A stretch of DNA of 64,000 nt, from positions 124,001 to 188,000 of the forward strand of contig CAJBEZ010000071.1 of the NCBI GenBank assembly GCA_903952205.1. Reading direction: 5' to 3'. Below are positions 1 to 15,003 of the stretch, piece by piece. The DNA is from an uncultured Desulfomonile sp. (lineage in GTDB: Bacteria; Desulfobacterota; Desulfomonilia; Desulfomonilales; Desulfomonilaceae). Below the pieces are notes generated by a model. That model saw only the letters and a program-made list of their open reading frames with translations, was not told where the DNA came from and did no database searches. The first letter of the stretch is position 1. Each line of letters begins with the position of its first letter. The position numbers and the translations under genes were made by a program.

Positions 1-1
1 G

Positions 2-361
2 GATTCTGTGGCCAGCCTGGCGTCTACGGCCGGCAAAGAAACTCGTTCCGCTGCCCCACAAGGAGAGGATGCCCATCAATTCAAGAAAATGATTCTGACC
101 GCCATTCATGAGGTCGCATTCTATCCAAAAGGCGCATTGCATCGGAGAGAGTTTGGAGAAACCCTCGTGTCATTCACAATTCTCAGCGACGGCTCCATAG
201 AGAATCTATCAGTCGTAAGGAAATCAGGATCAGAATCTCTTGACAAAGCGGCGCTTCGGATCGTCGAAAAGGCGTCATCACACTTTCCTCCAATTCCAGA
301 AACTCTGGGACACAATAAACTCAACTACGTGATCCCGATCACATTCAGGAGAAAATCATAG
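2..361 (+). CDS. tonB: TonB-family protein, C-terminal part (cut by window edge)
   Basis: The reading frame is open from the left edge, so only about the last 119 residues are seen. They form a TonB C-terminal domain: an amphipathic helix with a YPKGALHRREFGET segment, then the strand pattern FTILSDGSIENLSVVRKSG and a terminal YVIPITFRRKS. This periplasmic domain passes proton-motive energy from ExbB/ExbD to TonB-dependent outer-membrane receptors by pairing with their TonB box. The stop codon lies one base before the ATG of the next gene, a corrinoid/iron-type binding protein, so the two are probably co-transcribed. A partner receptor is encoded at 4994-7453. The N-terminal anchor and proline-rich spacer lie outside the window. 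The family call is firm; the link to corrinoid uptake is inferred from neighbours. Confidence 0.82.
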   Translation, partial: DSVASLASTAGKETRSAAPQGEDAHQFKKMILTAIHEVAFYPKGALHRREFGETLVSFTILSDGSIENLSVVRKSGSESLDKAALRIVEKASSHFPPIPETLGHNKLNYVIPITFRRKS

Positions 362-362
362 A

Positions 363-1265
363 ATGGCTCTACGAGGATTTGTTTTGGGTCTGTTAATGCT
401 CTCCATGTATCCAGGCATGAGTGTGGAAAAGGTTTGGGGCCAATCAGCGAATCGCCTGTGCGTAAAAGACTCCATGGAGGCGCAGGTCTGCGTAAACGAT
501 ACTCCGAAAAGAATAGTTTCTTTAGCTCCAAGTCTCACGGAATTGGCATTTGAACTTGGGGCGGGTTCGAGTCTCGTTGGGCGCACCACCAGATGCAATT
601 TTCCGGAAGAGGCCAAAAAAGTTCCGGACATGGGCGCTTACATGAAGCCGGATTTTGAAAAACTTGTAGCGGCCAGGCCGGATCTGGTCCTAGCGCCTAA
701 GACTGGTATAAGACCTGAATTGATCGATCGTCTCAGGAATTTAAAAATACCGGTGTATGTTGATGACAGTTTAAATATTGAAGATATACGAAATGTTATC
801 ATCAATATTGCCAAGCTGTTGGGGAAAGAAAACCAGGCGACGCAGATTGTGGATGATATGCAATCCCGTCGGGATCGAATTAACGAAATGGTCAAAGGAG
901 AAAAAAAAGCAACAGCGCTTTTTGTCGTTGGAATTAGACCCCTGGTTGTGGCCGGTTCGAAATCCTTTCTTGGCTCACTCATACGAGAGGCCGGTGGCGT
1001 AAATATAGCTGAGAGCGTAGATGTTGAATACCCCAAGTTCAGTATTGAGGAAGTCATCAGGGCCAATCCTGATGTAATACTGATATTGGACAAGGAATGC
1101 CATGGTGAAGACTGTCTCAATCAATGGAAGAATCACATTCACTTAAAAGCTGTTCAAAAAAATAGAATTCACGAACTGGACGCTGACCTAATGAGCCGGC
1201 CAGGTGTCAGGACAATAGAAGGACTGGAGAAGTTGTCGAACCTGTTACACCCGGCTGTTTTGTGA
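363..1265 (+). CDS. btuF: BtuF-type periplasmic corrinoid (or iron-chelate) binding protein
   Basis: A 300-residue exported binding protein of the BtuF/FecB helical-backbone class. Residues 1-28 look like a signal peptide. The fold signature begins at about residue 50 (RIVSLAPSLTELAFELG), followed by VGRTTRC and LVAARPDLVLAPKTG. A later KFSIEEVIRANPDVILIL segment marks the second lobe. It delivers substrate to the BtuCD-type membrane transporter encoded immediately downstream. The ATG starts one base after the tonB stop. An extra Cys-containing segment (RLCVKDSMEAQVCV) precedes the first lobe. Family membership alone does not separate vitamin B12 from ferric siderophore substrates; a CbiZ gene and a cobalamin-riboswitch operon next door favour corrinoids. 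Confidence 0.85.
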   Translation: MALRGFVLGLLMLSMYPGMSVEKVWGQSANRLCVKDSMEAQVCVNDTPKRIVSLAPSLTELAFELGAGSSLVGRTTRCNFPEEAKKVPDMGAYMKPDFEKLVAARPDLVLAPKTGIRPELIDRLRNLKIPVYVDDSLNIEDIRNVIINIAKLLGKENQATQIVDDMQSRRDRINEMVKGEKKATALFVVGIRPLVVAGSKSFLGSLIREAGGVNIAESVDVEYPKFSIEEVIRANPDVILILDKECHGEDCLNQWKNHIHLKAVQKNRIHELDADLMSRPGVRTIEGLEKLSNLLHPAVL

Positions 1266-1308
1266 CGCCTCAAATCTTCAAAGAAAGCCGGAACAGCGCC
1301 AGGAAACA

Positions 1309-2337
1309 GTGACAGAGCGTTCATCACAAACAATGCGACCTAACATTCTGAGAAAAACCCTTGTTATAAACTCTCTCCTGTTTTTTGCCCTGTTGATTTC
1401 TATCCTTTTTTCATTATTGGAGGGAACAACCAGTGTGGGGTTTTGGGACCTGCTGAATTCCACCCTTTATGAAACCAGTTCAACAGGAGTTTCCACAATT
1501 GTCTTTTCTTACCGTTTGCCCAGAATTTTACTTGCATGTATTGCGGGAGCCGGGCTGGCCTGTTCCGGAGTGGTTTTTCAGGGAGTTTTGAGAAACCCGC
1601 TTGCCGACCCCTATATTATAGGAATAGCGGCAGGTGGGGCCTTGGGCGCGGTGACTTCAATAAGCCTGCTTAAATCAAACGGGTTGTTCATGACATCCAT
1701 TTCCTCTTTTGTGGGAAGTTTGGTTGCCGTCGCTCTCGTCTATGGTCTGACTTTATTGCGAAAGAATTCAACATACATAAATACCGTGATTCTGGCCGGC
1801 ATAATTGTAGGATCCCTTATGAACGCGACTATGCTCCTGATAATGTCGGTCAGCGGTTCTCATGAATTACAACGGGTCCTGTTCTGGTTAATGGGTGATT
1901 TTAGCCTTGCGGACTATGAACAGATAATGTTCTCAGGGCCGATAGTCATAGCGGGTTTTCTGCTAATTTACCTGAACGCCAACAGGCTGAATGTCTTGGC
2001 TCTGGGAGATGAATTCGCCTCAACTCTCGGTGTTGATGTTACAAAGCGCCGGCTTTTGCTCATGACCATAGCCTCATTAATCACAGGCTCCGTTGTCAGC
2101 GTATCTGGAACGATCGGCTTTGTCGGCCTGGTCGCTCCCCATTCCATGAGACTATTGTTTGGACCGGACCATAGGATATTGCTGCCGACGGCGTTCCTCG
2201 GCGGCGCCATATTCCTGGTCATCTCGGACACCGTGGCCAGGCTTGTGGCCTACCCTGTTGAACTTCCTGTCGGGGTAGTTACGGCGCTTAGTGGGGGGCC
2301 ATTTTTCCTTTACCTCTTGCTGAGGAATCAAAACTGA
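1309..2337 (+). CDS. btuC: BtuC/FecCD-type ABC transporter permease
   Basis: A 342-residue, strongly hydrophobic FecCD-family permease with about nine or ten membrane segments. Family hallmarks are YRLPRILLACIAGAGLACSG, VVFQGVLRNPLADPYIIGI and GFVGLVAPHSMRLLFGPDHR, the last near the cytoplasmic coupling loop. Two copies form the channel that takes substrate from the upstream binding protein and is powered by the downstream ATPase. The start is a GTG with AGGAAAC just upstream; an ATG 24 bases later is the alternative. The end of the protein (LPVGVVTALSGGPFFLYLL) is typical and complete. Confidence 0.88.
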   Translation: MTERSSQTMRPNILRKTLVINSLLFFALLISILFSLLEGTTSVGFWDLLNSTLYETSSTGVSTIVFSYRLPRILLACIAGAGLACSGVVFQGVLRNPLADPYIIGIAAGGALGAVTSISLLKSNGLFMTSISSFVGSLVAVALVYGLTLLRKNSTYINTVILAGIIVGSLMNATMLLIMSVSGSHELQRVLFWLMGDFSLADYEQIMFSGPIVIAGFLLIYLNANRLNVLALGDEFASTLGVDVTKRRLLLMTIASLITGSVVSVSGTIGFVGLVAPHSMRLLFGPDHRILLPTAFLGGAIFLVISDTVARLVAYPVELPVGVVTALSGGPFFLYLLLRNQN

Positions 2338-2418
2338 GAGTCCCCAGCCGGTTGTAAACATTAGACTCTGATGATCTCGGCATGCCCGTATTAAATGTTT
2401 GACCATGAGACCACTTCA

Positions 2419-3204
2419 ATGAAGGCCAACGTCCTAGAATGCAAATCTGTGAGCGTGATTTACAATGAACTGGTCGCTCTGGATAAAGTGAGCCTGTCCA
2501 TCAAAGCAGGAGATTTCCTGGGCATTGTAGGGCCTAACGGAGCCGGCAAGTCTACATTGATCAAAGTTATGAGCGGGTTACTGGAACCTGATACAGGAAA
2601 TGTAAATCTGAGCGATATCAACCTTAGATCTTTGTCAAGACAGGTCATAGCCAGAGAACTGGCTGTAGTTGTTCAGGAAGAAAACTCGGAATTCGGATTC
2701 AATGTTGAGCAGTACGTTGCGCTGGGTCGCTCGCCTCATCATGGTGGCCTGTACTTTGAGGGTTCACGTGACAGAGAAATAGTTCTCAACGCCCTGAGGA
2801 GAACTCATACGGAGCGACTGGCGTCACGTGATGTAAATTCTCTTTCAGGGGGAGAAAGACAGCATGTCAGAATTGCGCGGGCCCTGGCTCAGGAACCAAA
2901 TATCCTGATTCTTGATGAGCCTACAAACCATCTCGATATATTCTCCCAGATGAATCTGGGAGAATTGCTGAGGAATATCAACATGGAGGGCATAGCCATA
3001 GTAATGGTATCTCATGACATCAACTTCATGTGTCAGGCGTGTAATCAACTAAAACTGATGAGTGAAGGCAAAATCATCGCTGAGGGGATTCCAGGCGAAG
3101 TCATTACAGAAAACTCTCTGGCCGAAGCGTTCAAGGTGAAAGCATTGGTGGATATAAATCCTGTGACCAAGGCCACGAGAATCACTCCCTATGCAAAGAT
3201 CTAG
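2419..3204 (+). CDS. btuD: BtuD/FecE-type ABC transporter ATPase
   Basis: A cytoplasmic nucleotide-binding subunit of about 261 residues. It carries Walker A (GPNGAGKST), Q-loop region (VVVQEENSEFG), ABC signature (LSGGERQ), Walker B with D-loop (ILILDEPTNHLD) and the switch histidine (VMVSHD). The ATG at 2419 (MKANVLECK) is preferred over one 24 bases upstream because family members begin close to this point. It closes the tonB-btuF-btuC-btuD gene set. Its stop lies 15 bases from the stop of the convergent cbiZ gene, leaving no room for a separate terminator. Substrate is inferred from context. Confidence 0.87.
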   Translation: MKANVLECKSVSVIYNELVALDKVSLSIKAGDFLGIVGPNGAGKSTLIKVMSGLLEPDTGNVNLSDINLRSLSRQVIARELAVVVQEENSEFGFNVEQYVALGRSPHHGGLYFEGSRDREIVLNALRRTHTERLASRDVNSLSGGERQHVRIARALAQEPNILILDEPTNHLDIFSQMNLGELLRNINMEGIAIVMVSHDINFMCQACNQLKLMSEGKIIAEGIPGEVITENSLAEAFKVKALVDINPVTKATRITPYAKI

Positions 3205-3219
3205 AATCCGTTTTGAAGA

Positions 3220-4368
3220 CTACTTTCGCCATTTTGCATCGAAACCCAAAGCGAAGGACCTGTATACAAAGGATGCAAATTCTTGAGCGTCGATGGAGAC
3301 ATATTCGACCGATAATTCTTGGATAAAGGCCGGCGTCTCACAGAATTTGCCAGACACCGCAGCCGCAACCATAGCCCCCTGGGCGACAAGCATTTCCTTC
3401 ACGCAACCTGTCGGCAACACACCCCACATGCATTTTTCCCTGACATGAATCAGTGCGGCCAAGGCTGCGACCGTCGGAGGGTCCAAGTCTATGCTCGACA
3501 AATTTTTCGTGAACAATGCCGCCTGTTCAGACGTAAGAAACCGCCCTACCCCTTCACAAAAAACTTCTGCGTCCGCACACAGGGGACCAAGATGAGTCAT
3601 GCAGGAACACTGAACATTTGGAGACAGTGAATTTTGCCAGATCAACGTCTCCCTCAAGGCCTTAAGAGAAACTAGCCCTACCAATTCCCCCAACTTCGTG
3701 TGTTTGCCGGCGGAACTGAGCATGAGCCCCGATCCCCCTCGGGAGGCTACCAGGATTTGATCAGTGCCCGTCCCTGTGGCCATCGAATCAGAATAACGGG
3801 AGTAGATTCCCAACTCCCTCAATACGGCCGCTTTCGCTTCGGTCGCAGTCATGACACAATCCAGCAGAGCGACTGCGGAGACTCTGTGATTTATGAACAG
3901 CATCAGATTGATGGTTCCGGCATGGGGGACATCGTTGCCGTCGATGATCTCGAAACGGTCGTCCGTTTCATAAACCGCCGCAGGATCACCAGCAGCCATG
4001 GAATTGCACTCCACACCACCAGTGCAGACGGCGGTAACCTCAACATCTCGAAATTGCATGGTTTCAATGGAGGCGTTGTTCATGTTGGCGGCTGTTTCCA
4101 GAATGGCCGTTCTGTCCGAAGGAAGGTTGTAATAATCGCATATTGACTTGTGATAGCTTTCCGGGTCATCGATAATCTTGGAGTCCACAAAATCCAGATG
4201 GTCACGAGGCTCGCAGCACTGGTGATTGCATACAAAGCTTAAGTCGTCCCTGTAACCGCCCCCAACCCGGCACGTTGAAATGGATGCGCACAGTTCGAGC
4301 ATCTTGACAATAATTATTTTCTCCTCGCGATGAATCTCGATCCAATCCTGAAATTTCTTCAAAAGCAT
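3220..4368 (-). CDS. cbiZ: CbiZ-type adenosylcobinamide amidohydrolase with C-terminal extension
   Basis: Residues about 90-230 carry the CbiZ signature: TAVCTGGVECNSMAAGDP, an AGTINLMLFINHRVS segment, the TATEAKAAVL motif and the ATGTGTDQILVAS motif. CbiZ removes the lower part of the nucleotide loop of pseudo-corrinoids, yielding adenosylcobyric acid that the cell can rebuild into its own cobamide. The usual CbiZ is roughly 220-250 residues; this one is 382 with about 140 extra C-terminal residues (Cys-containing, no family recognised). The ATG at 4368 has GGAG six bases upstream, so it is preferred over the GTG at 4380. It is the last gene of the riboswitch-headed minus-strand operon, directly opposite btuFCD. 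This pairs uptake with corrinoid remodelling. Confidence 0.86.
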   Translation of the reverse strand: MLLKKFQDWIEIHREEKIIIVKMLELCASISTCRVGGGYRDDLSFVCNHQCCEPRDHLDFVDSKIIDDPESYHKSICDYYNLPSDRTAILETAANMNNASIETMQFRDVEVTAVCTGGVECNSMAAGDPAAVYETDDRFEIIDGNDVPHAGTINLMLFINHRVSAVALLDCVMTATEAKAAVLRELGIYSRYSDSMATGTGTDQILVASRGGSGLMLSSAGKHTKLGELVGLVSLKALRETLIWQNSLSPNVQCSCMTHLGPLCADAEVFCEGVGRFLTSEQAALFTKNLSSIDLDPPTVAALAALIHVREKCMWGVLPTGCVKEMLVAQGAMVAAAVSGKFCETPAFIQELSVEYVSIDAQEFASFVYRSFALGFDAKWRK

Positions 4369-4466
4369 AGAATTCTCCACATGGTGACGCTCGGATTACC
4401 GGCGACGCATAAATTGACGAGACGCATGTCCAGCTATATATTCCTGGATGATCTTGATGGAGGTCG

Positions 4467-4976
4467 TTATCGAACCGGTCGGTTTCCTCCTATATTTGGG
4501 AAATCGACTCTTTCCATGTAGGAGTTATAAGCCAGCCACTCCTGTAACTCACATACGGAGCCTTTCTTGACATACCCGATGTTCTTTACGTCAATCCGGG
4601 TAAAACAATCAGGTTCCAGCAGCTTGAATTCAATCAGATCTTCAGGCAAGACCATGAAAAGCTCCCTGCTCGGAATATGAACCGATTCAATCATTCCCTG
4701 GTCCTTGACTTGCCAATAGCCCTTGAACGAATAATGCCTGTAGGAAAAGAACCTTCGCCTAAAAGAGGATTCGTCGATTCTCTGGTGAGTTATGGCCCAG
4801 ATACCAGGACAGGTGGCCCTGAAGATAACCCCACCGGAGAAACCCAGTTGCACTGGTTTATCAGTACAGGTTATCTCAATTGAATTTTCGAGAGGGAAAA
4901 GCTGTCCGGCATTAGCTCCAGTAGGCGCTAAAGTCAAGACTATCAAGGATGCTATCACAGCTATATTTTTGATCAT
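4467..4976 (-). CDS. Small exported protein of the corrinoid operon, function unknown
   Basis: A 169-residue protein with a clear signal peptide (MIKNIAVIASLIVLTLAPTGANA). Four cysteines remain in the mature part (EITCTDKP, RATCPG, EPDCFTR, GSVCELQ), enough for two disulfides. The body looks like a small beta-rich domain. I recognise no family. The ATG has GGGAG upstream. It lies 17 bases after the TonB-dependent receptor and about 100 bases before cbiZ on the same strand, so it is probably co-transcribed under the cobalamin riboswitch. A periplasmic role with the receptor or its ligand is inference only. Confidence 0.7.
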   Translation of the reverse strand: MIKNIAVIASLIVLTLAPTGANAGQLFPLENSIEITCTDKPVQLGFSGGVIFRATCPGIWAITHQRIDESSFRRRFFSYRHYSFKGYWQVKDQGMIESVHIPSRELFMVLPEDLIEFKLLEPDCFTRIDVKNIGYVKKGSVCELQEWLAYNSYMERVDFPNIGGNRPVR

Positions 4977-4993
4977 AATCGGACTCCCGCTTT

Positions 4994-7453
4994 TTAGAAT
5001 GTTGTCAGGCCACGCATCCAGGTAGCCGCTCCCAGGGTTGATGGAAATCCATCGGAGACTGAACCGTAAAGCCTCTGACTCATTCTTGTGAGATCGGAAA
5101 CAGTGGGCATTCTCATTTTTTCGAAATCCAGCTTGGCTTTTAGACCAAAAAAGTATGTCCTTCCTGGGGCCGAAAAATACAGGATATCAAATGGGGGAGG
5201 AACCCAATTATCTGGTGGTAAATATGTGCCCTGCGGCGAATATTGACGGTCGCTAAAGTTCCTTACACCAAAATACAGTTCCGCCAGATCACCCCAGAAT
5301 TTCTGTGAAAAACTTATGTCGCCCCACTTGCATGCCTCAAGATCAGGCTGCTCATTGAAGATATCATTCAACAGGAAACGGCTTCCTACATAATGATACG
5401 CTATCATGCCGGAGAATCCCCATTCCCTGTTGTTGTAAATCAACTCGAGGTTGGCCATGTCGCTCGGGTTTAGAGTCAGCCATTTATCCAGAGTCGTTCG
5501 GCTCAAAGCGTCAGTGGTTTGCCAGTTGGACCCAAAGTATACTTTCTGTCTCGTGTAGTTGGATTTAACTGTCCAACGGGGCGTTATCCTGATCAACGAT
5601 TCAATCTCAACCCCTGCGTGTGATACATTCGGAACATTCACGTTCCTGCTGAGTCCGCCCTTTGCTGGATTCGGGTCAGGCCCCCAGAAGATTTCATTGT
5701 TCATGTCCAGCTCATAATATGTAGCGCCAACAAAGATGTTCCGTGTGAACCAGTGTCTGATTCCTACTTCTTCCAGAGTACCGTCTTCCGGCTGCAAAAG
5801 CCATATAGGGTCAGGGTGAACTTGAAAACCGCCATACCTAAGATTGATCATGTCATCGAAATTTGGAAATCGATATGGCGTGGAATGTTTGAAGTATATG
5901 TCAGAACCTAATTCACGATCATATACAAAACCTAGACCATACTGGGCAGCGCTCTTGTTGGGGTTGACTCGCCCTCTTACCGTATTGCCTGGACTCAAAG
6001 TTGTCTCTGAATACAGATCTTTGAGATCATAGTCTTCTGTCCGGTATCCAAGAGTGAGAATAAGCCGGTCGCAGAATCGTGTCTGGTTCATCATCCAATA
6101 CCCCACTGAGTCTCGATCACCTCTCGTGGATCCAGAATGGGCAAGACCTATTCGATTTGCTTTGATTGCACGTGTTTCCCTTACAAATCGGCCGCTTGAA
6201 TAGTCTAATCCCAGGGTTAGATCGTTGCGGAGAAATGAGTATTGGTCGGTGCGGGTGTATTTGAAGTACAGGCTTGAGTCCGTCCACCGCTGGTCGGAAC
6301 CCACCGTATCCGTGAAATAGAATGGAATACTCCTATCGTATGTCCGCCCTGCCCATGTGATCTCAAGGTTTCCAAGATTCTCCCCGGTGTAAATGAGTTT
6401 GACCATGGAGAAGTTGTCTCCACGATGCTCAGGGGGATCGTCAAATGGTGGTTGTCCCCAATAACCAGGCCTTATGTCCCTGATGTCTCTCCGTTGCCAT
6501 CTCGGCTGGTCTATTGCGTTGTAATTCGGAACTCGCTGGTCCGAAATCAAATGGCTTATGTCGAGCGTCAAATTTGGCGAGATCTTCCAGTTCAGGCTCC
6601 CATAAACGTTCACTAGTGACCATGGACCGGGTCGCGAGATTGGTTCTTCATTGCCGTTATCGCCATAGTAGGTTCTCCAACCTTGCTCATTATACCTGCC
6701 CATGAATATGCCTAGCGCCAGAGAGTCCTTAATGATGTTTGTGGCGGCCCATTCCCTGTCCAGGCCCCAGGAACCACCTTCAGCGCCAAAATACGTTCCT
6801 GGATTTAACCGGGGTTTCTTAAGGATGACATTTATAGACCCCCCGATGGCCTTATCTCCAAACGGGATAGTCCCGTCGCTTCTCAACACTTCAACCCGCT
6901 CAATGAGTTCCGGAAATATGAAATTGGTGTTGCTTTCGTTCCTGGGCATGTTGAGATTGGCTCCGTCCCACAAAATCGAAGTCCTGTTCGTCGTCTCATT
7001 GCTAAAACCCCTAATTGCAATGGGAGCTTCAAAGGCGTTTCCGGCAAATCCACCCATTGAATTCACACCCGCTTGCCCCTGAACCACGTCTGAAAGGCCG
7101 GTCCTGCCTAAAGCGGTCACCCCTCTATTTTCAATGACACTTATCGCAGCCGGGACTGCGGCAATGTTCTGCGGTTGACCAGTTGCGGAAACGACCTCCG
7201 ACCTGGTAGGCGCAAAATCTGAAAATGGTTGCCCTGAAGGTATCGGATCTCCGTATCCGAATCCTTCCTCTGACCTTGCTCCTCGGGATGCGCCACCTGC
7301 CGCAGGCGCCTGCACCTGCACACTCGGCAATTGCTCGGATGGAACCGGGGCCGCATCCTGAGCTACAACCCTGTCAATTGTTAATAGGCTCAGGAATAAG
7401 ACCATAGCCATTCTGATTAAAGTTCCAACGCTATATTTGTATTTAATCCTCAT
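4994..7453 (-). CDS. TonB-dependent outer-membrane receptor, probably for corrinoids
   Basis: An 819-residue TonB-dependent receptor. It has a signal peptide (residues 1-31), a possible TonB box (LPSVQVQAP near 43), a plug domain with IRGFSNETTNRTSILWDGA and IERVEVLRSDGTIPFGDKAIGG, then a long 22-strand-type barrel rich in aromatic turns. A final strand-like YFFGLKAKLDF lies at about residue 777, but a further 42 residues follow and end again in Phe, which is unusual. Such receptors import scarce large ligands using TonB energy. The cobalamin riboswitch upstream and cbiZ downstream point to a BtuB-like role, although the sequence alone would equally fit a siderophore receptor. Confidence 0.88.
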   Translation of the reverse strand: MRIKYKYSVGTLIRMAMVLFLSLLTIDRVVAQDAAPVPSEQLPSVQVQAPAAGGASRGARSEEGFGYGDPIPSGQPFSDFAPTRSEVVSATGQPQNIAAVPAAISVIENRGVTALGRTGLSDVVQGQAGVNSMGGFAGNAFEAPIAIRGFSNETTNRTSILWDGANLNMPRNESNTNFIFPELIERVEVLRSDGTIPFGDKAIGGSINVILKKPRLNPGTYFGAEGGSWGLDREWAATNIIKDSLALGIFMGRYNEQGWRTYYGDNGNEEPISRPGPWSLVNVYGSLNWKISPNLTLDISHLISDQRVPNYNAIDQPRWQRRDIRDIRPGYWGQPPFDDPPEHRGDNFSMVKLIYTGENLGNLEITWAGRTYDRSIPFYFTDTVGSDQRWTDSSLYFKYTRTDQYSFLRNDLTLGLDYSSGRFVRETRAIKANRIGLAHSGSTRGDRDSVGYWMMNQTRFCDRLILTLGYRTEDYDLKDLYSETTLSPGNTVRGRVNPNKSAAQYGLGFVYDRELGSDIYFKHSTPYRFPNFDDMINLRYGGFQVHPDPIWLLQPEDGTLEEVGIRHWFTRNIFVGATYYELDMNNEIFWGPDPNPAKGGLSRNVNVPNVSHAGVEIESLIRITPRWTVKSNYTRQKVYFGSNWQTTDALSRTTLDKWLTLNPSDMANLELIYNNREWGFSGMIAYHYVGSRFLLNDIFNEQPDLEACKWGDISFSQKFWGDLAELYFGVRNFSDRQYSPQGTYLPPDNWVPPPFDILYFSAPGRTYFFGLKAKLDFEKMRMPTVSDLTRMSQRLYGSVSDGFPSTLGAATWMRGLTTF

Positions 7454-7491
7454 GAGACTGTTTCTCCATTACGTAGAGACTGACGGCAAAA

Positions 7492-8214
7492 CTAAGGCCT
7501 GACGGGTCGACCGCGTAAGTCGGGGCCGTTGGGGCTTTCCCGGAAGAGGTCCCCAAACCAACGATCATCCCGAACGATGGCCCCCGGAATGTTAACAATC
7601 CCCTGCAGAAGATTATTGGGCTCTACCGGAGGCAATCTGTGCTCCTGAACTAATTGAGGCGGCAGTTGAGGTCCTCCGCATCCGATATTCGCGTCCTGAC
7701 GAGGCAGTAGCCCCACGACAGGACCCTGCGGAGCGCAGGCGACCGGGCCAACACCACACGCCGGGATCGGAGGAGATGGACAAAACTTTGGCGGCATGGG
7801 ATTCCCGCAACGAGGGGGTTGCGGCCTGCCGCATACCGAACCGCATGGCATTGAGCGATTGACAGGCAAAACCGCCTCAATCGCCCTGAACGGTAACTGA
7901 ATTGTAGCCTTCAGCAGCCCTACCGCATTGATCACAATTCTTCTGACGGGACCTTCTTCCCTGTAAGTTAAGGGGACTAGCCTCGGTTGACATGACGTAA
8001 CTTTAACAGGAGGGGGTGCTAGCCGATATTGCGATGGAACATTTTGACAGGCCCCAGATTGATCCGGGCCGCACGGCGCAGGTACAGGGTAGGAACATGA
8101 AGGCCCCGTAGGTTGGCAGACCTGAGGAATACCGACCCCGTGTGATTCCGTGAAGCATCCGATCACCATTAGCAACAACAAACTCATTATTAAGCTTTGG
8201 TGTGTCTGAGCCAT
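7492..8214 (-). CDS. Cys/Pro-rich predicted lipoprotein, first gene after the cobalamin riboswitch
   Basis: A 240-residue protein starting at an ATG with a strong AGGAGG. The N-terminus is a lipoprotein signal (SLLLLMVIGC, Cys20 as likely lipidation site). The mature part is rich in Pro and Gly and has about twelve further Cys, often as Pro-Cys or Gly-Cys (PSCSYPVPAPCG, MPCGSVCGRPQPPRCG). Only a short central stretch (IVINAVGLLKATIQLPFRAI) looks ordinarily folded. I recognise no family. It is the first gene of the riboswitch operon and ends 38 bases before the receptor start. By analogy with surface B12 lipoproteins of Bacteroidetes it might help the receptor bind ligand, but there is no sequence evidence for homology. 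Confidence 0.68.
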   Translation of the reverse strand: MAQTHQSLIMSLLLLMVIGCFTESHGVGIPQVCQPTGPSCSYPVPAPCGPDQSGACQNVPSQYRLAPPPVKVTSCQPRLVPLTYREEGPVRRIVINAVGLLKATIQLPFRAIEAVLPVNRSMPCGSVCGRPQPPRCGNPMPPKFCPSPPIPACGVGPVACAPQGPVVGLLPRQDANIGCGGPQLPPQLVQEHRLPPVEPNNLLQGIVNIPGAIVRDDRWFGDLFRESPNGPDLRGRPVRP

Positions 8215-8437
8215 TTAGACCTCCTATATCCGATAAAATGTGATTAATTCCAAAGTAACTTACTGATATAATGTGATATTTAGTTTTTCACAAAAGAACA
8301 CATCTCAAGTGGTCGGAATTAGCGATAGGTCCACAGACCAGACACTAAATCCGACTGACACTATTGAACCTGACTTGACGTGGTTGAATGTAGATGGGAA
8401 AATATTGGTAACGGGAACCGCCTGTTATTTCCCACCG

Positions 8438-8469
8438 GTCTTGAGTTCCGTTGCAGCGGAACTCAAGAC
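8438..8469 (-). other. 13-bp perfect stem-loop in the corrinoid operon leader
   Basis: The arms GTCTTGAGTTCCG and CGGAACTCAAGAC pair perfectly around a 6-base loop. It lies between the riboswitch terminator and the first gene, about 220 bases upstream of the ATG. There is no T-run on either side, so it is not a normal intrinsic terminator. It may stabilise or process the leader, or bind a protein as inverted-repeat DNA. Confidence 0.6.
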
Positions 8470-8497
8470 TAACGAACCCTTATGTCATGTCAAAATC

Positions 8498-8531
8498 AAA
8501 AAACCCTCTTACCTGAACGGTAAAAGGGTTT
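8498..8531 (-). terminator. Intrinsic terminator of the cobalamin riboswitch (expression platform)
   Basis: Read on the minus strand, the arms AACCCTTTTACC and GGTAAGAGGGTT (one mismatch) enclose a short GTTCA loop and run into TTTTTTG. It sits about 45 bases downstream of the riboswitch core and upstream of the lipoprotein gene. It is therefore the likely OFF-state terminator that closes the operon when corrinoid is bound. Confidence 0.8.
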
Positions 8532-8574
8532 GAGAACGAATTCCTGATCCCTTGTCTGCCCGCGCAGGTTTTTT

Positions 8575-8745
8575 AGGGTTAGGAATATACCCGGGTATTC
8601 TGGCTTCCGTTTCGCCCTACTCTCCGCTCCTTCCCAGAACGTATTCCAGTGGATTAAACGCGGATTTCGTCTACGGTCACAGCTGCGGGGCAGCGACGGT
8701 CTTTCACCGTCTTCCCCAAAGTATTTCCTTTTATGTTTATTTGTA
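8575..8745 (-). promoter_or_regulatory. Cobalamin riboswitch
   Basis: The minus strand shows the cobalamin aptamer in order: GGGGAAGACGGTGAAAG near 8720-8701, the highly conserved GCTGCCCCGCAGCTGT core near 8694-8679, a GGGAAGGAGCGGAGAG arm near 8635-8620, and the B12 box GGAAGCCAGAATACC near 8608-8594. These are the hallmark segments of the family that shuts off B12 transport and synthesis genes when adenosylcobalamin or a relative is bound. The outer P1 ends are estimates. An intrinsic terminator follows at 8498-8531, so control is probably transcriptional. The controlled genes run leftward from 8214 to 3220. Confidence 0.93.
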
Positions 8746-8881
8746 CAATATCCGAAAGTAGCCTAGATTATGCTTCCAAAATCTGTCAAGTCTTTTTTTC
8801 TCAATGATGCAGGGAAACGATTGCCGATCATCTGTTCGTCGTGTCCCACGCAACAGACCGGGGTGAGCCCATTTAAAAACG

Positions 8882-10360
8882 TCATGGGCAACTCGCCGCT
8901 CCAGTGGCCTGCGGAAAAATGGAGGTTTGATCTGTTTCCAACGCTGGTATTGGTAGAGACAGATTTAATATCTCGGCAATCTTCTTAGCTATATCCGTAT
9001 TGTCATAACTTCCTGAAAACAGCTTTTCTCCGGGGCCAACCGCTTTAGTCATAACAGGCTGTTCCGTATGGCCGAATGAAGTCCAATCCACTTTCGCCCG
9101 CTGACTTGTTATCATGCTCAGCGCCTCCAGGGTCGCAGACTTGGCAAACTTGCGTTTGGCCTTGTCTCCATTTCCAGAAGGTTTTTCCTCAACTACTTTC
9201 GTTTGATTGTTTTTTAACAGTTCAGCTTCTTCTTCCGTCAAGTTCAACCCTGCGGATTTCAATATCGCTTCTTGTTGGTCGGGAGCCGTTTTAATCTTGT
9301 CTTCAAGGTAAGTCAGGCTCCGTTTGATTGGTTCCAGAGGGAGAGGATCAATAGTGAAGTCATCTCCATCCGGCAGATGTATGAGCCCTCCAGTTTCGTG
9401 GTCCGCCGTGACTATTACCAGCACATCAGGGTGAGTCTTTTGATAACTCAAAGCCAATCCTACCGCAGCGTCAAAATCCAGCGTTTCAGTTATCATGGTC
9501 TTGATGTCTTGATTGTGGCAGGCATGATCAATACGCCCACCTTCTATCATGACGAAAAAGCCCTTCGAATTTCTCCCTACTATGGAAAGAACTATTTTTG
9601 TCATTTCCGCCAGGTTGGGCTGATTGGACAATACCTTATGGCCTTCACGATCAATTACGTAGGCCATGTTCGACAGGGAGAACAATCCAAAGAGTTTGTC
9701 GACGGTTTCCGGATTCACTGCTTTCAGGTCTGAGTTGTTTTCTACAAATCCGTAACCCCTACCCTTCATTAGTTCAATGATATCTTTCTGATCAGTCCTT
9801 TTGCTACCCTGTTGACTTGATGGGACAAAATACGCCCCCCCTCCGCCCAAGATCACATCAGGCGAAAACTCCGGCAATTGTCCCGCAATGTAGGCTTCGC
9901 AGTCGCGACGGGCAGAACTGCTGTATATTGCTGCAGGCGTTGCGTCAGTCAAACGGGTCGTGCTCACAACACCCACCGACAAACCAGCTTTCTTTGCGGC
10001 AAAGGCAACGTTAAAAACTTTTCTTCCATCAGGTAGAATGCTCAATTGACCGGTGTTAGTCTTGTGACCTGAATAAAGGGCCGTCGCTGCGGCGGCTGAG
10101 TCAGTGACCTTTGAATTGGCCGCGTGCGTTGTGGTAAGCCCCGATGTTTGGATAGTATTGATTGCGAGGTCCTTGCCCAATATACGCTGAGCGTAAATTC
10201 CGGCCGATTTAACCTGATTGATTCCCATACCGTCTCCTATAAGAAGGATGACGCCTTTGGCCCTCTCAAGGTTGTTGGATTCGGCGAACGCGAGAAAATT
10301 GATCGTAAATACAAGAACAACCGCTATTGTCGTGACAAAGTATTTTCTCAATGAACTCAT
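8882..10360 (-). CDS. Exported alkaline phosphatase (PhoA superfamily)
   Basis: A 492-residue periplasmic phosphomonoesterase. After a signal peptide (to about FAFAES, residue 28) come the metal-binding LIGDGMG, the nucleophile region TDSAAAATALYSGHKTNTG (Ser attacked during catalysis), DHACHNQD, the zinc-binding TADHETGG and the last zinc histidine in SFGHTEQPV. All three metal sites appear intact. A helical Lys/Glu-rich insertion (about residues 340-425) lies between TADHETGG and the final motif, longer than in compact homologs. The start ATG has CAGGAAAC upstream. It releases phosphate from organic esters; no Pho box was identified. It is separated from the riboswitch by about 135 bases and is not part of that operon. 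Confidence 0.92.
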   Translation of the reverse strand: MSSLRKYFVTTIAVVLVFTINFLAFAESNNLERAKGVILLIGDGMGINQVKSAGIYAQRILGKDLAINTIQTSGLTTTHAANSKVTDSAAAATALYSGHKTNTGQLSILPDGRKVFNVAFAAKKAGLSVGVVSTTRLTDATPAAIYSSSARRDCEAYIAGQLPEFSPDVILGGGGAYFVPSSQQGSKRTDQKDIIELMKGRGYGFVENNSDLKAVNPETVDKLFGLFSLSNMAYVIDREGHKVLSNQPNLAEMTKIVLSIVGRNSKGFFVMIEGGRIDHACHNQDIKTMITETLDFDAAVGLALSYQKTHPDVLVIVTADHETGGLIHLPDGDDFTIDPLPLEPIKRSLTYLEDKIKTAPDQQEAILKSAGLNLTEEEAELLKNNQTKVVEEKPSGNGDKAKRKFAKSATLEALSMITSQRAKVDWTSFGHTEQPVMTKAVGPGEKLFSGSYDNTDIAKKIAEILNLSLPIPALETDQTSIFPQATGAASCP

Positions 10361-10492
10361 CTTGTTTCCTGCTGCGTCTTGAACCTCGCAGTTGAATGTT
10401 CATCAATTTCTAGAAAGTTTTGGAATGCGCTCGAAATATTTCCTGAGGAAAACACATTCGCTCCGTCTTCTTGACGCTATGGGTCGAAAACC

Positions 10493-11188
10493 TCATGCGC
10501 TCGATTTGCCCCACACCCAGAGCTTTCCTATAACAATGACGCCGATTGCCGCTACACCCTCTACCAGGAAAATAAATAACTCACCTTGAGGCATGAACGG
10601 CGCCATCACTGAATCGGTAACAATCATCTCAGCTCCGACTTTTCCCAGAAGAGCTGCCCCAATAGTGATAATTATCGGGTACTTGTCCATAAGCATGGAA
10701 AGAAGGTTACTGGTGAAGATCATTATTGGAATGCTTGTAGTCAACCCAAAAATCAACAGAAGCAAATTGCCTTTTGAAGCTGCCCCCACGCCTAACATAT
10801 TATCCAAAGACATCGTAACATCCGCAACAACTATTATCTTCAACGCCTGCCAAATCGTGCTCGCTTCTCGACCCGCCTCATTTTCAGGGTTCACGTCAAC
10901 GAAAAGTTTCACTGCAAGCCAAAGGATGAGCAGTCCCCCTATAATCTTAAGGTAGGGGGTTTCGAGAAACCGGGCAACGAAAAAAGTCATGATGATCCGT
11001 AATAATACCGCTCCGGCGGCCCCGATCAGAATCCCTTTTTGTCGTTGAACTCTAGGCAGGGAGCGCACAGCCATTGCAATGACAACAGCGTTGTCCCCAG
11101 ATAGCACCACATTGATCATGATAATGCTAAAAAGACTTGTCAAGAATTCCCAGTTGAAGTTTATCGTGCCTAGTATTCCAAGATCCAT
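10493..11188 (-). CDS. TerC/YjbE-family integral membrane protein
   Basis: A 231-residue inner-membrane protein with about seven hydrophobic segments. The TerC-family acidic motifs are present: NVVLSGDNAVVIAMA in the first third and VVADVTMSLDNMLGVGAA in the middle, each with membrane-embedded Asp/Asn. Members of this family export or handle metal ions, mainly manganese, or act in tellurite resistance and envelope protein metalation. The closest type here is YjbE/YkoY-like. A yybP-ykoY manganese riboswitch, which often precedes such genes, was looked for upstream and not recognised. Minus strand, single gene, GAGAGG upstream of the ATG. Confidence 0.85.
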   Translation of the reverse strand: MDLGILGTINFNWEFLTSLFSIIMINVVLSGDNAVVIAMAVRSLPRVQRQKGILIGAAGAVLLRIIMTFFVARFLETPYLKIIGGLLILWLAVKLFVDVNPENEAGREASTIWQALKIIVVADVTMSLDNMLGVGAASKGNLLLLIFGLTTSIPIMIFTSNLLSMLMDKYPIIITIGAALLGKVGAEMIVTDSVMAPFMPQGELFIFLVEGVAAIGVIVIGKLWVWGKSSA

Positions 11189-11993
11189 TACCGGAATGCC
11201 TCTCTTTCAGTAAGACGCTATATCTGACTACGGTTTCAACCTTGGGTACCGGAACCGGATTACATATTTCAAAACTCGTTGTGATCCAGGGGAGTCATCA
11301 CTAACTTGGCTGACGTCTCGAATGCGTTCAAGACGAAACCTGTCCCGACCAAAAGTTCATCACGGTGAAAAAACCAAATTGAGCTTCTTCCCCGAACATT
11401 TCAAAAATCCATAGACTGGAACAACGATCACAATCCATAGCGCTTCGTGTTTAAATTTATACCATGTAACGAATACATCAAGTTTTTTTGGAGTCACTTA
11501 TCCCAAATCTTGAATTAGATTTTCGCCGGCGCCTGCACACTGTTATCAGTGGAACTCAAATGCAACAAGCACTATCGTGTTCATCAGGATGAACCGAGCG
11601 CTCAAGAGAAAAAACACGAGCGCCAAATTTATTTCAATTGGGTCTTGATGGCGCGAGGAAAAGTCTACAATTAACGCGCTCCGTATTTATTCCATTTTGC
11701 CTTAGGATAACTTATATAGGGGCATTACAATACGCCCGCATAAAACGGGGACAGCCCGTAACAACGAATCGGAGACAATGGCACGACAACACCTCCAACG
11801 TTAATGAAAACCATACTGACAAAAAATGTTGTAAGGATTGGAAATCGGAATTACAATGATCAAAATTCAATGTTTAGTGGATCTTACGACACATGGGCAA
11901 AGGCGCCCCATATTTGTGGATCGAGCGTCCCCCCGAAGTCGGGTTACGTTATTAGCGCCTCGATGAATCAACAACCAAGAACATGAGGTACCA
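11189..11993. other. Gene-free interval of about 800 bases
   Basis: Between the divergent terC-like gene and the cytidylate-kinase-like gene no coding region, RNA gene or repeat was recognised. Short open frames (for example 11638-11859) have neither a ribosome-binding site nor recognisable sequence. It probably holds the promoters of both flanking genes. Confidence 0.6.
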
Positions 11994-12797
11994 GTGGCAA
12001 TCTTAACTATTTCCAGACAGTTCGGAAGCGGAATAAGAGAGATACGCCTCGAAATAGCCCTAGAATTGAATTACAAGTATGTCGATAAGAAATGTATCCT
12101 CAGCGATATAGCGGCGAAAGGGGGAAAATGGGAGCAATGGGCCACAGAATTCGACCAAAGTTCTCCAAGTACATGGGAAAGGCTGGATTGGTCGTTCAAA
12201 GGATTCGGGGCGCTTCTTCAAAGCGTGATGCTAAGTTATACCATCGATGACAACGTAATACTGGCGGGGAGAGGGTCAAACTTTCTCCTTGAAGGTGTCG
12301 CACACGCTTACAAAGTCCGTTTTGTGGCTCCTATGGAGCAAAGAATCGAACGAATCTCAGTATGGGAGTCAGTCGATCGTCAGACCGCACTGAGTATTGC
12401 GAAAAAGACTGATCGTGAAAGAGCGGGATTTGTACACGCTCTCTACGGCAAGGACATAAAAGATCCTCATTACTACGACGATGTTTTTGACACTGGAGTT
12501 ATCTCCGCGGAAAAGATCGTCACTATTATAAGAGAGAATTTGTTGGCGCGAGACAGTTTGAAAACCCAGGAGGCCCAACATCTCCTCCGAATGAGAGCCG
12601 CTGCGGCCAAAGTCAGAGCAGGACTCATCATAGACACTCGTCTCTACGTTCCTACCCTGGAAGTGCATTGCACCAACACGGAACTCGCTCTTCGAGGTAT
12701 TGTTCACAATTCCGATGAGTACGCTCGAATCGAGTCCGCGGCCCGTGAGTTGGCCGGAGATGTTCCTTTGAAGATCGAGCTTAAATTTCGATCGTGA
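11994..12797 (+). CDS. Cytidylate-kinase-like family protein
   Basis: A 267-residue soluble protein. The N-terminus AILTISRQFGSGIREIRLEIALEL matches the start of the cytidylate kinase-like family, where a P-loop variant binds nucleotide, but the usual second Gly/Lys pattern is changed to GSGIREIR. A central NVILAGRGSNFLL and a basic VRFVAPMEQRIERI segment follow the family layout. The C-terminal 70 residues (LIIDTRLYVPTLEVHCTN onward) look like a separate small alpha/beta domain. The GTG start has GAGG five bases upstream. Function in this family is largely unknown; a nucleotide kinase activity should not be assumed given the altered P-loop. Confidence 0.75.
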   Translation: MAILTISRQFGSGIREIRLEIALELNYKYVDKKCILSDIAAKGGKWEQWATEFDQSSPSTWERLDWSFKGFGALLQSVMLSYTIDDNVILAGRGSNFLLEGVAHAYKVRFVAPMEQRIERISVWESVDRQTALSIAKKTDRERAGFVHALYGKDIKDPHYYDDVFDTGVISAEKIVTIIRENLLARDSLKTQEAQHLLRMRAAAAKVRAGLIIDTRLYVPTLEVHCTNTELALRGIVHNSDEYARIESAARELAGDVPLKIELKFRS

Positions 12798-13802
12798 TGG
12801 AACCTCACGTAGTCGCCATCAGCCTTAATTGTGGAGCATGTTTTGAAGAAACTAAGCTGAATTCCTCGTCGTCTCTTCCAGAAGGGATGCCGCTACCGAC
12901 GGACGAGTCTATAACACCATGTCAGATCAATTCACCGCAGTCTTTAGCATAGGCGAATAACACCAGGTTATGACTGTCCTGGTATCGACGACTATTTCTC
13001 TCCGGCTTGAGGAGTCATTCTTGGTCAATTTAGGAATTGTCTACATTAGTATATGCAGATTATACCAACAGAAAAAAGTTATTGCGCTGACAATAAATGC
13101 ATGCCAGAAAAATGTTGTGTTTTGATGTCGGTCGTCAATAGTGGACACCAATTGTTTAAGTTGCCTTTTGTTGTTCGTAATATCGACTCGTAAAGGCCAC
13201 GGGAGAGAGATAGCCAAGTTTTTTCTGTTTTCTCTGACGATTATGAAAAACCTCGATGTATTCCGTGATGTCTTTACTGGCCTCCTGCGGGGTTCTGTAG
13301 TGACGATGAAAAACCAGTTCACTCTTAATATCCCCCAGAAGCTTTCAATCGGAGCATTATCGTAACAGTTCCCCTGTTCAGAAGATTCAACCGCTTTCAG
13401 GTAAATCCTGTGGCTTTGATAAGCGTCCTGACATCTTTCGCTTAGGATTGGGTTTCACTGCGCAGCGCTATATAGGAAATCCTCGAAAATTTGACCAGAG
13501 CCGCGTTTTCCGACATTAAACTCTACGACGTATATGACGTTTACCGAGTCGCAGTAGCGAAACGACCTAAAAATACTTAGTGACCGTCAGGAAATAACTG
13601 CATCACTTGAAAGAGTTCGCGACCCGAATACTATGCAATCCATTCTATGGTTATGATCATCATTCGAAGTGCGAGTGAGCCGGTTTTATATTTTCAATCC
13701 GTAAATTTACGATTTTGGGATTCTGCAATGAAAGGGTTTGAATCATCTACATATTCCAGATTGTTGATTCACCACCCGAGGTAATTGTAAATCTACCATA
13801 GT
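12798..13802. other. Gene-poor kilobase with an IS relic
   Basis: Apart from the decayed IS3-type transposase end at 13156-13445, no gene is supported here. The left (12798-13155) and right (13446-13802) flanks contain stops in all frames and no terminal inverted repeats I could pair. It looks like a former insertion site undergoing erosion. Confidence 0.6.
13156..13445 (-). pseudogene. IS3-family transposase (OrfB) C-terminal relic, frameshifted
   Basis: On the minus strand the sequence reads QGNCYDNAPIESFWG, the diagnostic catalytic-region signature of IS3-type integrases (the terminal E of the DDE triad is in PIESFW). It then continues in another frame as SELVFHRHYRTPQEA, KDITEYIEVFHNRQR and LGYLSPVAF, ending in a normal stop at 13156. 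The frame changes at about 13324-13334, near a run of five Cs on the plus strand. Upstream of QGNC the sequence is strongly degraded and the N-terminal two thirds is missing. It encodes no working transposase. Confidence 0.88.
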
Positions 13803-14507
13803 TCATAGTGAATCCGGTAACTTACTCTGGACCTCTTTGATTTTAATTTCAACATCAGGGGTCCCTGATTCAATAATCAGCAGCGTCTGGCCAGCCGGTT
13901 CATAGTTCTGGGCATTGGCCTTCTTGAGCCATTCAATGCCCTTTACGAGGTCTTTTTCAACGCCCTCTCCCAAACTATACATTGCGCCGAGCGCATACTG
14001 AGCCGCCGCAAGGCCGGAATTCGAAGCTGCGCTATACCACCTGACTGCCTCATCAAGATCTTTCGCCACATATTTGCCAAATTGACTCATCACCCCTAAT
14101 GCAAACTGGGCGTCGGCGTAGCCCTTTTCCGCAGCCTTACGAAACCACACCATCGCTTGATCGCCGCTTTTCTGTACTCCCTGGCCGTAATAGTACATCC
14201 TGCCAAGGGCATACTGGGCTGCGCTGTATCCCTGTTCAGCCGCTTTGTTGAACCAAGCGAAGGCATTAGCCTGATTCTGTGGAACGCCTTTGCCATAAAA
14301 ATAAATTACTCCTATGTTGTACTGCGCTTCCGGATCCCCTTTTTCAGCTATTTCCAGCAAAACATCGACAGGTTTTCCGTCATTAGAAGCCCAAACAGGA
14401 GGGCAAACGAATAGAATACCGACGATATAAGTGGCTATAAGCACCCCCCTGACAAATCCAGGGGACGGTATCCGGGACAATGGCGAGGTCTCACAAATGT
14501 TATGCAA
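13803..14507 (-). CDS. Exported Sel1-repeat protein
   Basis: Four consecutive Sel1-like repeats of about 36 residues follow an N-terminal membrane/signal segment (GVLIATYIVGILFVCPPVWA). Each has the AQYNIGVIYFYGKGV / AFAWFNKAAEQGY pattern. Such alpha/alpha solenoids act as protein-binding scaffolds, here probably in the periplasm. I prefer a TTG start at 14507 because AGGAAAGGAG lies six bases upstream. The frame remains open further upstream but would overlap the neighbouring gene. A degenerate third repeat (MSQFGKYVAKDLDE) is still recognisable. The partner is unknown. It follows the YcgQ-like gene on the same strand and may share its transcript. Confidence 0.83.
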   Translation of the reverse strand: MHNICETSPLSRIPSPGFVRGVLIATYIVGILFVCPPVWASNDGKPVDVLLEIAEKGDPEAQYNIGVIYFYGKGVPQNQANAFAWFNKAAEQGYSAAQYALGRMYYYGQGVQKSGDQAMVWFRKAAEKGYADAQFALGVMSQFGKYVAKDLDEAVRWYSAASNSGLAAAQYALGAMYSLGEGVEKDLVKGIEWLKKANAQNYEPAGQTLLIIESGTPDVEIKIKEVQSKLPDSL

Positions 14508-14568
14508 ATTTGTCTCCTTTCCTGGAATCCCACCAAAAAAATCTTTCCAGCATACGGATGTTGCTTTT

Positions 14569-15003
14569 TCATCCGATTGGGCTTCTATTTGTAAACTCAA
14601 CTTTCGAAGTTTGCAACAAGCTAAACACAGCCGGTTGCTCCAGCCTGAAGTTCTGTTGCGCCAGAGATAAACGTTTGTTTAACGCGTCTGGACTTAGCCG
14701 TGATGTGACAGCCGTTGGAACGTACAGAAGAGGCAATATCATTATTCCCACCTGTAGCGTTAATCTGATTCCGTGTGGCCCGGCGCAATGGGGATCAGGG
14801 TAGACCAATGACAGCAAGAATAACAGAAGGATTCCTGTCCCAACATCTACCAACCACCAATATTCCTGGCGTAGTAATCTGGAAATAAGAGGTGTTCCCT
14901 CAATTCGCTGTATAATTATCCAGAAAGCTGCTATCCCCGCTATCAAAACGATCAAGAGCATGAATCGGCTCATTGAAGACGAGTTGAGATTACCATCCAC
15001 CAA
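14569..15003 (-). CDS. YcgQ-like (TIGR03943-type) small membrane protein, short form
   Basis: A 144-residue protein with three hydrophobic segments (about residues 13-32, 48-67 and 83-102). The pattern RLLRQEYWWLVDVGTGILLL, then ILPLLYVPTAVTSRLSPDAL, resembles the N-terminal membrane domain of the YcgQ/TIGR03943 family, which is usually encoded next to an ArsP/YraQ-type permease, as here. Family members are normally about twice as long; the soluble C-terminal half is absent. A TTG start at 15003 with GGAGG five bases upstream fits translational coupling to the permease, whose stop overlaps it. Given the damaged permease, the shortness may be decay. Family call moderate. Confidence 0.6.
   Translation of the reverse strand: MVDGNLNSSSMSRFMLLIVLIAGIAAFWIIIQRIEGTPLISRLLRQEYWWLVDVGTGILLLFLLSLVYPDPHCAGPHGIRLTLQVGIMILPLLYVPTAVTSRLSPDALNKRLSLAQQNFRLEQPAVFSLLQTSKVEFTNRSPIG

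Follow-up and report, generated by a model that had tools for sequence, protein, structure and literature searches.

A gene cluster at one end of the 64,000-nucleotide stretch of DNA analysed here (the window), which comes from an uncultured Desulfomonile, is probably a genuine, well-conserved and B12-responsive module for the acquisition and salvage of corrinoids. It combines two converging operons with cobalamin riboswitches, a TonB-dependent outer-membrane receptor (TBDT), a BtuFCD-type transporter and the remodelling enzyme CbiZ. Within it, a small exported protein, P2, appears as the partner that most likely binds the corrinoid or hands it over. The most interesting element of the locus is one overlooked by the first-pass annotation: a candidate antisense RNA, R1, located in the leader of the first gene, P1, and shared by most related receptor operons of the family.

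Organization of the Locus

The layout described in the first-pass annotation, in which a riboswitch and terminator are followed by P1, the TBDT, P2 and CbiZ and are faced by tonB and btuFCD, was borne out by the searches (Table 1). The plus-strand tonB-btuFCD operon converges on the minus-strand P1-TBDT-P2-cbiZ operon, and the ends of cbiZ and btuD lie 15 nt apart. The intergenic gaps within the latter operon are short, with 38 nt between P1 and the TBDT, 17 nt between the TBDT and P2, and 86 nt between P2 and cbiZ. The annotation went on to call the cluster a complete capture, import and remodelling module. Regulation, TonB-dependent uptake, BtuFCD and CbiZ do form a coherent set in a conserved order, but "complete" overstates the case, as the cluster yielded neither exbB nor exbD.

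Table 1. Features of the corrinoid locus, with positions in the window unless another contig is named
Feature	Position	Strand	Details
Cobalamin riboswitch aptamer (RF00174)	8573-8753	-	90.7 bits, full-length match 1-189
Riboswitch intrinsic terminator	8501-8531	-	13-bp stem and T run
Candidate antisense RNA gene R1	8369-8472	+	promoter and two hairpins in P1 leader
P1, exported Pro/Cys-rich protein, 240 aa, probable TBDT companion	7492-8214	-	signal peptide in sequence
TonB-dependent outer-membrane receptor (TBDT), 819 aa	4994-7453	-	Plug E 2.6e-16, barrel E 4.7e-20
P2, exported 169-aa protein with conserved core	4467-4976	-	ANA|G signal-peptidase-I-type end
CbiZ, predicted adenosylcobinamide amidohydrolase, 386 aa	3220-4380	-	PF01955 E 1.5e-51, residues 33-236
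BtuD-like ATPase	2395-3204	+	ABC_tran
BtuC-like permease	1309-2337	+	PF01032 E 1.7e-91
BtuF-like periplasmic binding protein	363-1265	+	PF01497 E 3.6e-37
TonB, C-terminal part	1-361	+	whole gene 391 aa, starting some 0.8 kb to the left of the window
Other R1 copies (among more)	G017:C451:9111; G016:C251:6872; G010:C1:837493, 5945380, 829490, 830358; G014:C7:4662

Two further observations concern the surroundings of the operon. The place upstream of the riboswitch is taken in the window by an alkaline phosphatase gene (8882-10360, minus strand), and in the same-genus locus L001 by cbiM/cbiQ/cbiO-type cobalt transporter genes (516-3075, plus strand), which immediately precede the riboswitch. A promoter-like TTGACG-17-TATATT element with a predicted hairpin occurs at 4414-4490 on the plus strand and is antisense to the P2-cbiZ junction.

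Conservation across the Family

The family sample comprised 18 genomes, with about half of the genomes being incomplete metagenome-assembled genomes (MAGs). The loci L001 and L002 come from MAGs of the same genus as the window, which correspond to G006 and G002, while G010, which carries cmu genes, is presumably Desulfomonile tiedjei DSM 6799. The gene order of the window recurs in related genomes: the succession of riboswitch, P1, TBDT and P2 persists through the family to TBDT identities as low as approximately 46-56%. No locus contradicts this order, because the contigs on which P2 is not seen (G005, G008, G014 and G015) break off within the TBDT or ahead of it. G010 has a second unit, with the order P1-TBDT-TBDT-P2, which adjoins cmuBCA-like genes and for which no riboswitch was detected (L033:925-5001, minus strand, and 8533-15279, plus strand).

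The family also contains nickel-type loci (L125-L129), in which R1, a P1-like protein and a TBDT follow one another. DUF4198-type proteins come next in L125, L127 and L129; L126 has none directly downstream of its TBDT, and L128 ends too early. The genes exbB-exbD-tonB are divergent in L125 and L128. The second TBDT of L125 (6916-9116, plus strand) has a frame break near 7160-7212 and is possibly a pseudogene, and the tree branch labelled L125b is an artefact of this break.

Cobalamin Riboswitches and Predicted B12 Control

The aptamer in the P1 leader scores 90.7 bits against an Rfam gathering cut-off of 31.5 (E 3.9e-21) and retains the conserved core. The terminator downstream of it provides an expression platform, and each of the ten loci compared has a hairpin with a T run after its riboswitch. 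A riboswitch lies upstream of P1 in every orthologous locus examined except L033 and L036. The leader upstream of the riboswitch-less P1 in L033 (8150-8400) differs, and its sole Rfam match is below threshold (RAGATH-31, 23.2 bits). A second cobalamin riboswitch precedes tonB-btuFCD, approximately 0.9-1.1 kb left of the window (G000:C71:122884-123071). Consequently, both converging operons are predicted to be B12-regulated, each having its own riboswitch. Two more are present in the genome, one before a second BtuC-type gene and the other before the gene for a cobalt chelatase of the CbiK type that probably carries a signal peptide.

In the proposed scheme, ample B12 would cause the riboswitch to favour the terminator and switch off P1-TBDT-P2-cbiZ, with high B12 terminating both operons. 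When corrinoid is scarce, transcription would read through the terminator, and the facing tonB-btuFCD operon would be de-repressed by its own riboswitch.

Receptor, Ligand and TonB System

The TBDT is the sole Plug-domain protein detected in this genome, which is 99.99% complete. It falls far below the cut-offs of the BtuB equivalog families, with 44.9 against 599.7 bits for TIGR01779 and 28.9 against 836 bits for PRK10641. Among proteins of solved structure, receptors for haem and for colicin I come nearest to it in sequence. Because by score it is not BtuB, its ligand has been assigned from context. Energised by TonB from the facing operon, the receptor would import corrinoids. The presence of a single TBDT together with a riboswitch-controlled tonB suggests that the TonB system here probably serves corrinoids alone.

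The receptor might instead import another tetrapyrrole or metal complex, such as a haem-like compound or cobalt, with the riboswitch reflecting no more than a shared need for cobalt or B12. The closest TBDT models, matched weakly, are indeed haem and haemoglobin receptors, and the cbiM/cbiQ cobalt transporter genes are next door in L001. However, the syntenic btuFCD and CbiZ act on corrinoids, and in L032 and L033 the receptor has corrinoid-specific neighbours, namely cmuA, BtuR and CbiZ. The presumed metal TBDTs of the family, moreover, form separate branches of the tree, in the company of DUF4198. A ligand other than a corrinoid is thus quite improbable.

P2, a Candidate Corrinoid-Handling Protein

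P2 is represented by seven copies in six genomes, which are 49-72% identical to the window's P2 over the alignment. The seven aligned sequences share 57 invariant positions, including two invariant cysteines, and most copies have an AxA-type signal peptidase I end. P2 looks soluble rather than lipidated. None of the seven matches a Pfam family at E <= 10, P2 has no PDB match by sequence, and across 395 phylum genomes every copy belongs to the family. Predicted structures of the two exported proteins, built on alignments of only 2-3 sequences, reached a pLDDT of approximately 37 and were unusable.

All seven copies are located directly downstream of TBDTs from one monophyletic corrinoid clade (support 1.000), with corrinoid genes nearby, so that a lack of such co-occurrence in other genomes, which the first-pass annotation had named as a ground for refutation, does not apply to P2. 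The neighbours are btuFCD and CbiZ in the window, L001, L002 and L035; btuD in L031; BtuR, CobN and a BtuF-CbiZ fusion in L032; and cmuBCA-like corrinoid methyltransferase genes in L033. Two cmu clusters of D. tiedjei have been described (PMC4197683). In the sister TBDT loci, DUF4198 occupies the slot of P2. Since P2 occurs only after corrinoid-clade TBDTs, it is a better candidate than P1 for a corrinoid-specific part. By position it would be a ligand-specific exported partner, dedicated to the corrinoid TBDT clade; we infer that it binds corrinoid, and it is a promising candidate as a novel protein of corrinoid handling. The annotation had regarded both envelope proteins as new corrinoid-uptake parts. 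This view gains support for P2 but fails for P1, whose homologues also precede nickel-type TBDTs.

P2 could also be an assembly, plug or signalling partner, with P1 and P2 aiding receptor folding or TonB coupling and neither of them touching the corrinoid. A dedicated partner of this kind would track one TBDT clade exactly, as P2 does; P1 accompanies TBDTs whatever the third gene, and sequence searches detect no corrinoid-binding fold in P2. Sister loci, in contrast, place in the same slot DUF4198, a family with one published nickel-binding member (PMC12537917), which fits a ligand-specific role. Such a purely structural or signalling function for P2 is consequently considered unlikely, and corrinoid binding or transfer is preferred.

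P1, a Probable General Receptor Companion

P1 carries one or two conserved amphipathic or hydrophobic segments. Its description as a lipoprotein in the first-pass annotation was rejected: the window's P1 has a lipobox-like VIGC, but such a motif (VIGC or IIGC) is confined to this copy and that of one same-genus genome, two sequences in all, and the other orthologues have signal-peptidase-I-type ends such as AQA|G. Ten P1 sequences gave no Pfam match at E <= 10, and P1 has neither a PDB match nor a relative outside the family among the 395 phylum genomes.

Homologues of P1 precede both corrinoid-type TBDTs and the nickel-type TBDTs associated with DUF4198, and P1 is for this reason better read as a general TBDT companion, which is its most likely role. 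A profile-profile comparison of corrinoid-type and nickel-type P1 gives 91% (E 1e-6). The nickel-type P1-like profile matches three corrinoid-type P1s (E 2e-26, 7e-15 and 4e-10, against a best E of 6.9 in 500 shuffles), and P1 as a corrinoid-specific protein was rejected on this ground. Compared directly with the P1 of the window, the same profile gives no match (E 270), and the reverse search with the P1 profile is weak (best E 0.07). The window's P1 is thus tied to the nickel-type proteins through its aligned orthologues and the profile-profile comparison rather than by a direct match. In the proposed mechanism, P1 would be an exported companion used by the family's TBDTs in general.

Predicted Inner-Membrane Transport and Corrinoid Remodelling

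The three-gene operon of PF01497, PF01032 and ABC_tran proteins has the BtuFCD architecture. The NCBIfam equivalog cut-offs were missed by BtuF (113 of 234 bits), BtuC (278.3 of 461) and BtuD (155.1 of 281), and the best NCBIfam matches, both below cut-off, are a corrinoid ABC ATPase for the BtuD-like protein and BtuC for the BtuC-like one. The transporter is still of the BtuFCD family type, with B12 specificity suggested by context, and would carry the corrinoid across the inner membrane.

The predicted adenosylcobinamide amidohydrolase CbiZ matches PF01955 with 175.6 bits against a gathering cut-off of 27, and its orthologues in L001 and L002 are 65-66% identical. It has no signal peptide and should therefore act in the cytosol, after import. 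There it would cut adenosylcobinamide-type corrinoids to adenosylcobyric acid, to which the cell's own lower ligand could then be added. CbiZ was not found in 12 of the 18 family genomes, including the P2-bearing G007, which indicates that the uptake part can do without remodelling.

In the genus of the window, CbiZ is a separate, cytosolic protein. In G010, it is instead fused behind a BtuF-type binding domain with a visible signal peptide (L097:1066-3126, minus strand), and similar sequences suggest the same for G014 (L095) and G017 (L098). Such a fusion would place CbiZ activity outside the cytosol, possibly in the periplasm. CobN-like proteins are encoded beside corrinoid TBDT loci in L032 (14023-17946, minus strand; 1307 aa, likely signal peptide) and L036 (3473-5989, minus strand). 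A link to organohalide respiration was rejected for this genome: PF13486 is absent from it, and the only match is in G010.

A Candidate Antisense RNA in the P1 Leader

A distance of 358 nt separates P1 from the end of the riboswitch match, and R1 is located in this interval on the opposite strand. Its sigma70-like promoter consists of a -35 element TTGACG (8375-8380), a 17-nt spacer and a -10 element GAAAAT (8398-8403), and the promoter is followed by a 5' hairpin and then a hairpin of 14-16 bp at 8438-8469. A descriptor of promoter plus hairpin gave a mean of 0.02 matches per 64 kb of shuffled sequence. No terminator was found downstream of R1. Its matches in Rfam (snR13, a viral microRNA and RAGATH-31) all fell below threshold and were implausible, so that assignment to a known family was rejected.

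A covariance model finds 16 copies in the family, seven of them outside the training set and all upstream of a P1-TBDT unit; no match was obtained outside the family among 395 phylum genomes under stricter filters. R1 precedes 15 of the 18 family P1-TBDT units, corrinoid-type and nickel-type alike, with a degenerate copy in G005 and no clear copy in G008 and G015. It is kept in L033 and L036, although no cobalamin riboswitch was detected directly upstream of P1 there. Both sides have changed in 13 of the 19 pairs, and covariation amounts to 46 cells against 13.6 in shuffles (none of 500 as high), a signal destroyed by sliding the pairing by one column. The 16-copy alignment was fitted to the model and leans towards structure; an unfitted alignment of nine sequences gives the same picture. 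Stem 2 shows little covariation and allows two alternative pairings of G and C runs.

The element may alternatively belong to the sense mRNA as one of its folded regions, or act as an operator in the DNA, rather than encode an antisense RNA: it sits in most long P1 leaders, and folding of the sense strand finds both stems too. On the other hand, across the 16 sequences the long stem 1 has G-U in 33 cells when read on the antisense strand but in only 3 when read on the sense strand, an asymmetry that points to transcription antisense to P1 and disfavours a sense-mRNA part. TTGAC, an exact 17-nt spacer and a -10 element (GATAAT, GAAAAT and similar) occur in antisense orientation in all nine loci first aligned. 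Folding is also better for the antisense strand, at -33.2 (covariation -3.1) against -28.9 (covariation -1.0). Consequently, a sense-strand or operator element is rather unlikely, and the antisense RNA is preferred.

As such, the short RNA would probably add a second, negative control; by analogy with known antisense RNAs, it may repress the TBDT operon. The R1 copies of L125 and L128 also point towards exbB-exbD-tonB, and in some loci R1 could be the leader of a divergent operon. The most far-reaching interpretation joins two proposals: that family-specific cis-antisense RNAs, transcribed from a conserved leader promoter, control TBDT expression with or without a detected cobalamin riboswitch, and that P2 represents a new class of exported corrinoid-binding proteins. 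Taken together, these can only be put forward tentatively, with somewhat less than even confidence.

Comparison with Known Systems

To our knowledge, enteric bacteria and Bacteroides are the only groups in which outer-membrane corrinoid uptake is well understood. P2, if the present reading is true, would extend this picture to an unrelated lineage, as a corrinoid-handling protein without a Pfam or PDB relative. That the only TBDT detected in the genome would serve corrinoids shows how much depends on vitamin B12. In Bacteroides, cobamide loci contain riboswitch-controlled TBDTs with extra exported proteins, of which BtuG2 and BtuH2 bind B12 directly (PMC6143338, PMC8941943, PMC10404256). The window resembles these BtuB/BtuG/BtuH loci in having a riboswitch-controlled TBDT locus with extra exported proteins. 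However, P1 and P2 match no Pfam family, including the BtuG, BtuH and DUF4465 types, and have no conserved lipobox; the host is a relative of sulfate reducers, and its TBDT lies outside the BtuB equivalog family.

As in operon-2 and operon-4 of Dehalobacter and the salvage operons of Dehalococcoides, cbiZ adjoins a BtuFCD-type transporter in the window. The Dehalobacter operon-2 proteins, including CbiZ, rise strongly under corrinoid starvation (PMC4285132). Unlike the operons of these organohalide respirers, the window adds the TBDT, P1 and P2, and its genome has no reductive dehalogenase match. The loci combining DUF4198 with TonB receptors offer another parallel. Nickel binding, with a Kd of 18 nM, has been shown for one DUF4198 member, and TonB-receptor neighbours have been described (PMC12537917). 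Both types of loci have a TBDT followed by an exported protein, and in this family a P1-like protein and R1 precede both, whereas the window has P2 in place of DUF4198 and corrinoid genes in place of metal genes.

For R1, the closest parallel is DonS. DonS and its relatives are cis-antisense RNAs of 78-128 nt, divergent to susC (TBDT-type) genes of Bacteroides, which they repress (PMC7366714). R1 is likewise a candidate for a short, structured RNA encoded divergently from a TBDT operon, the likeness noted here being one of position. It differs from DonS in that it is a predicted RNA, its host phylum is unrelated and it is combined with a B12 riboswitch. If R1 is indeed an antisense RNA, shared by corrinoid and nickel TBDT operons, the family would represent a second lineage, beside Bacteroides, in which TBDTs are under cis-antisense control.
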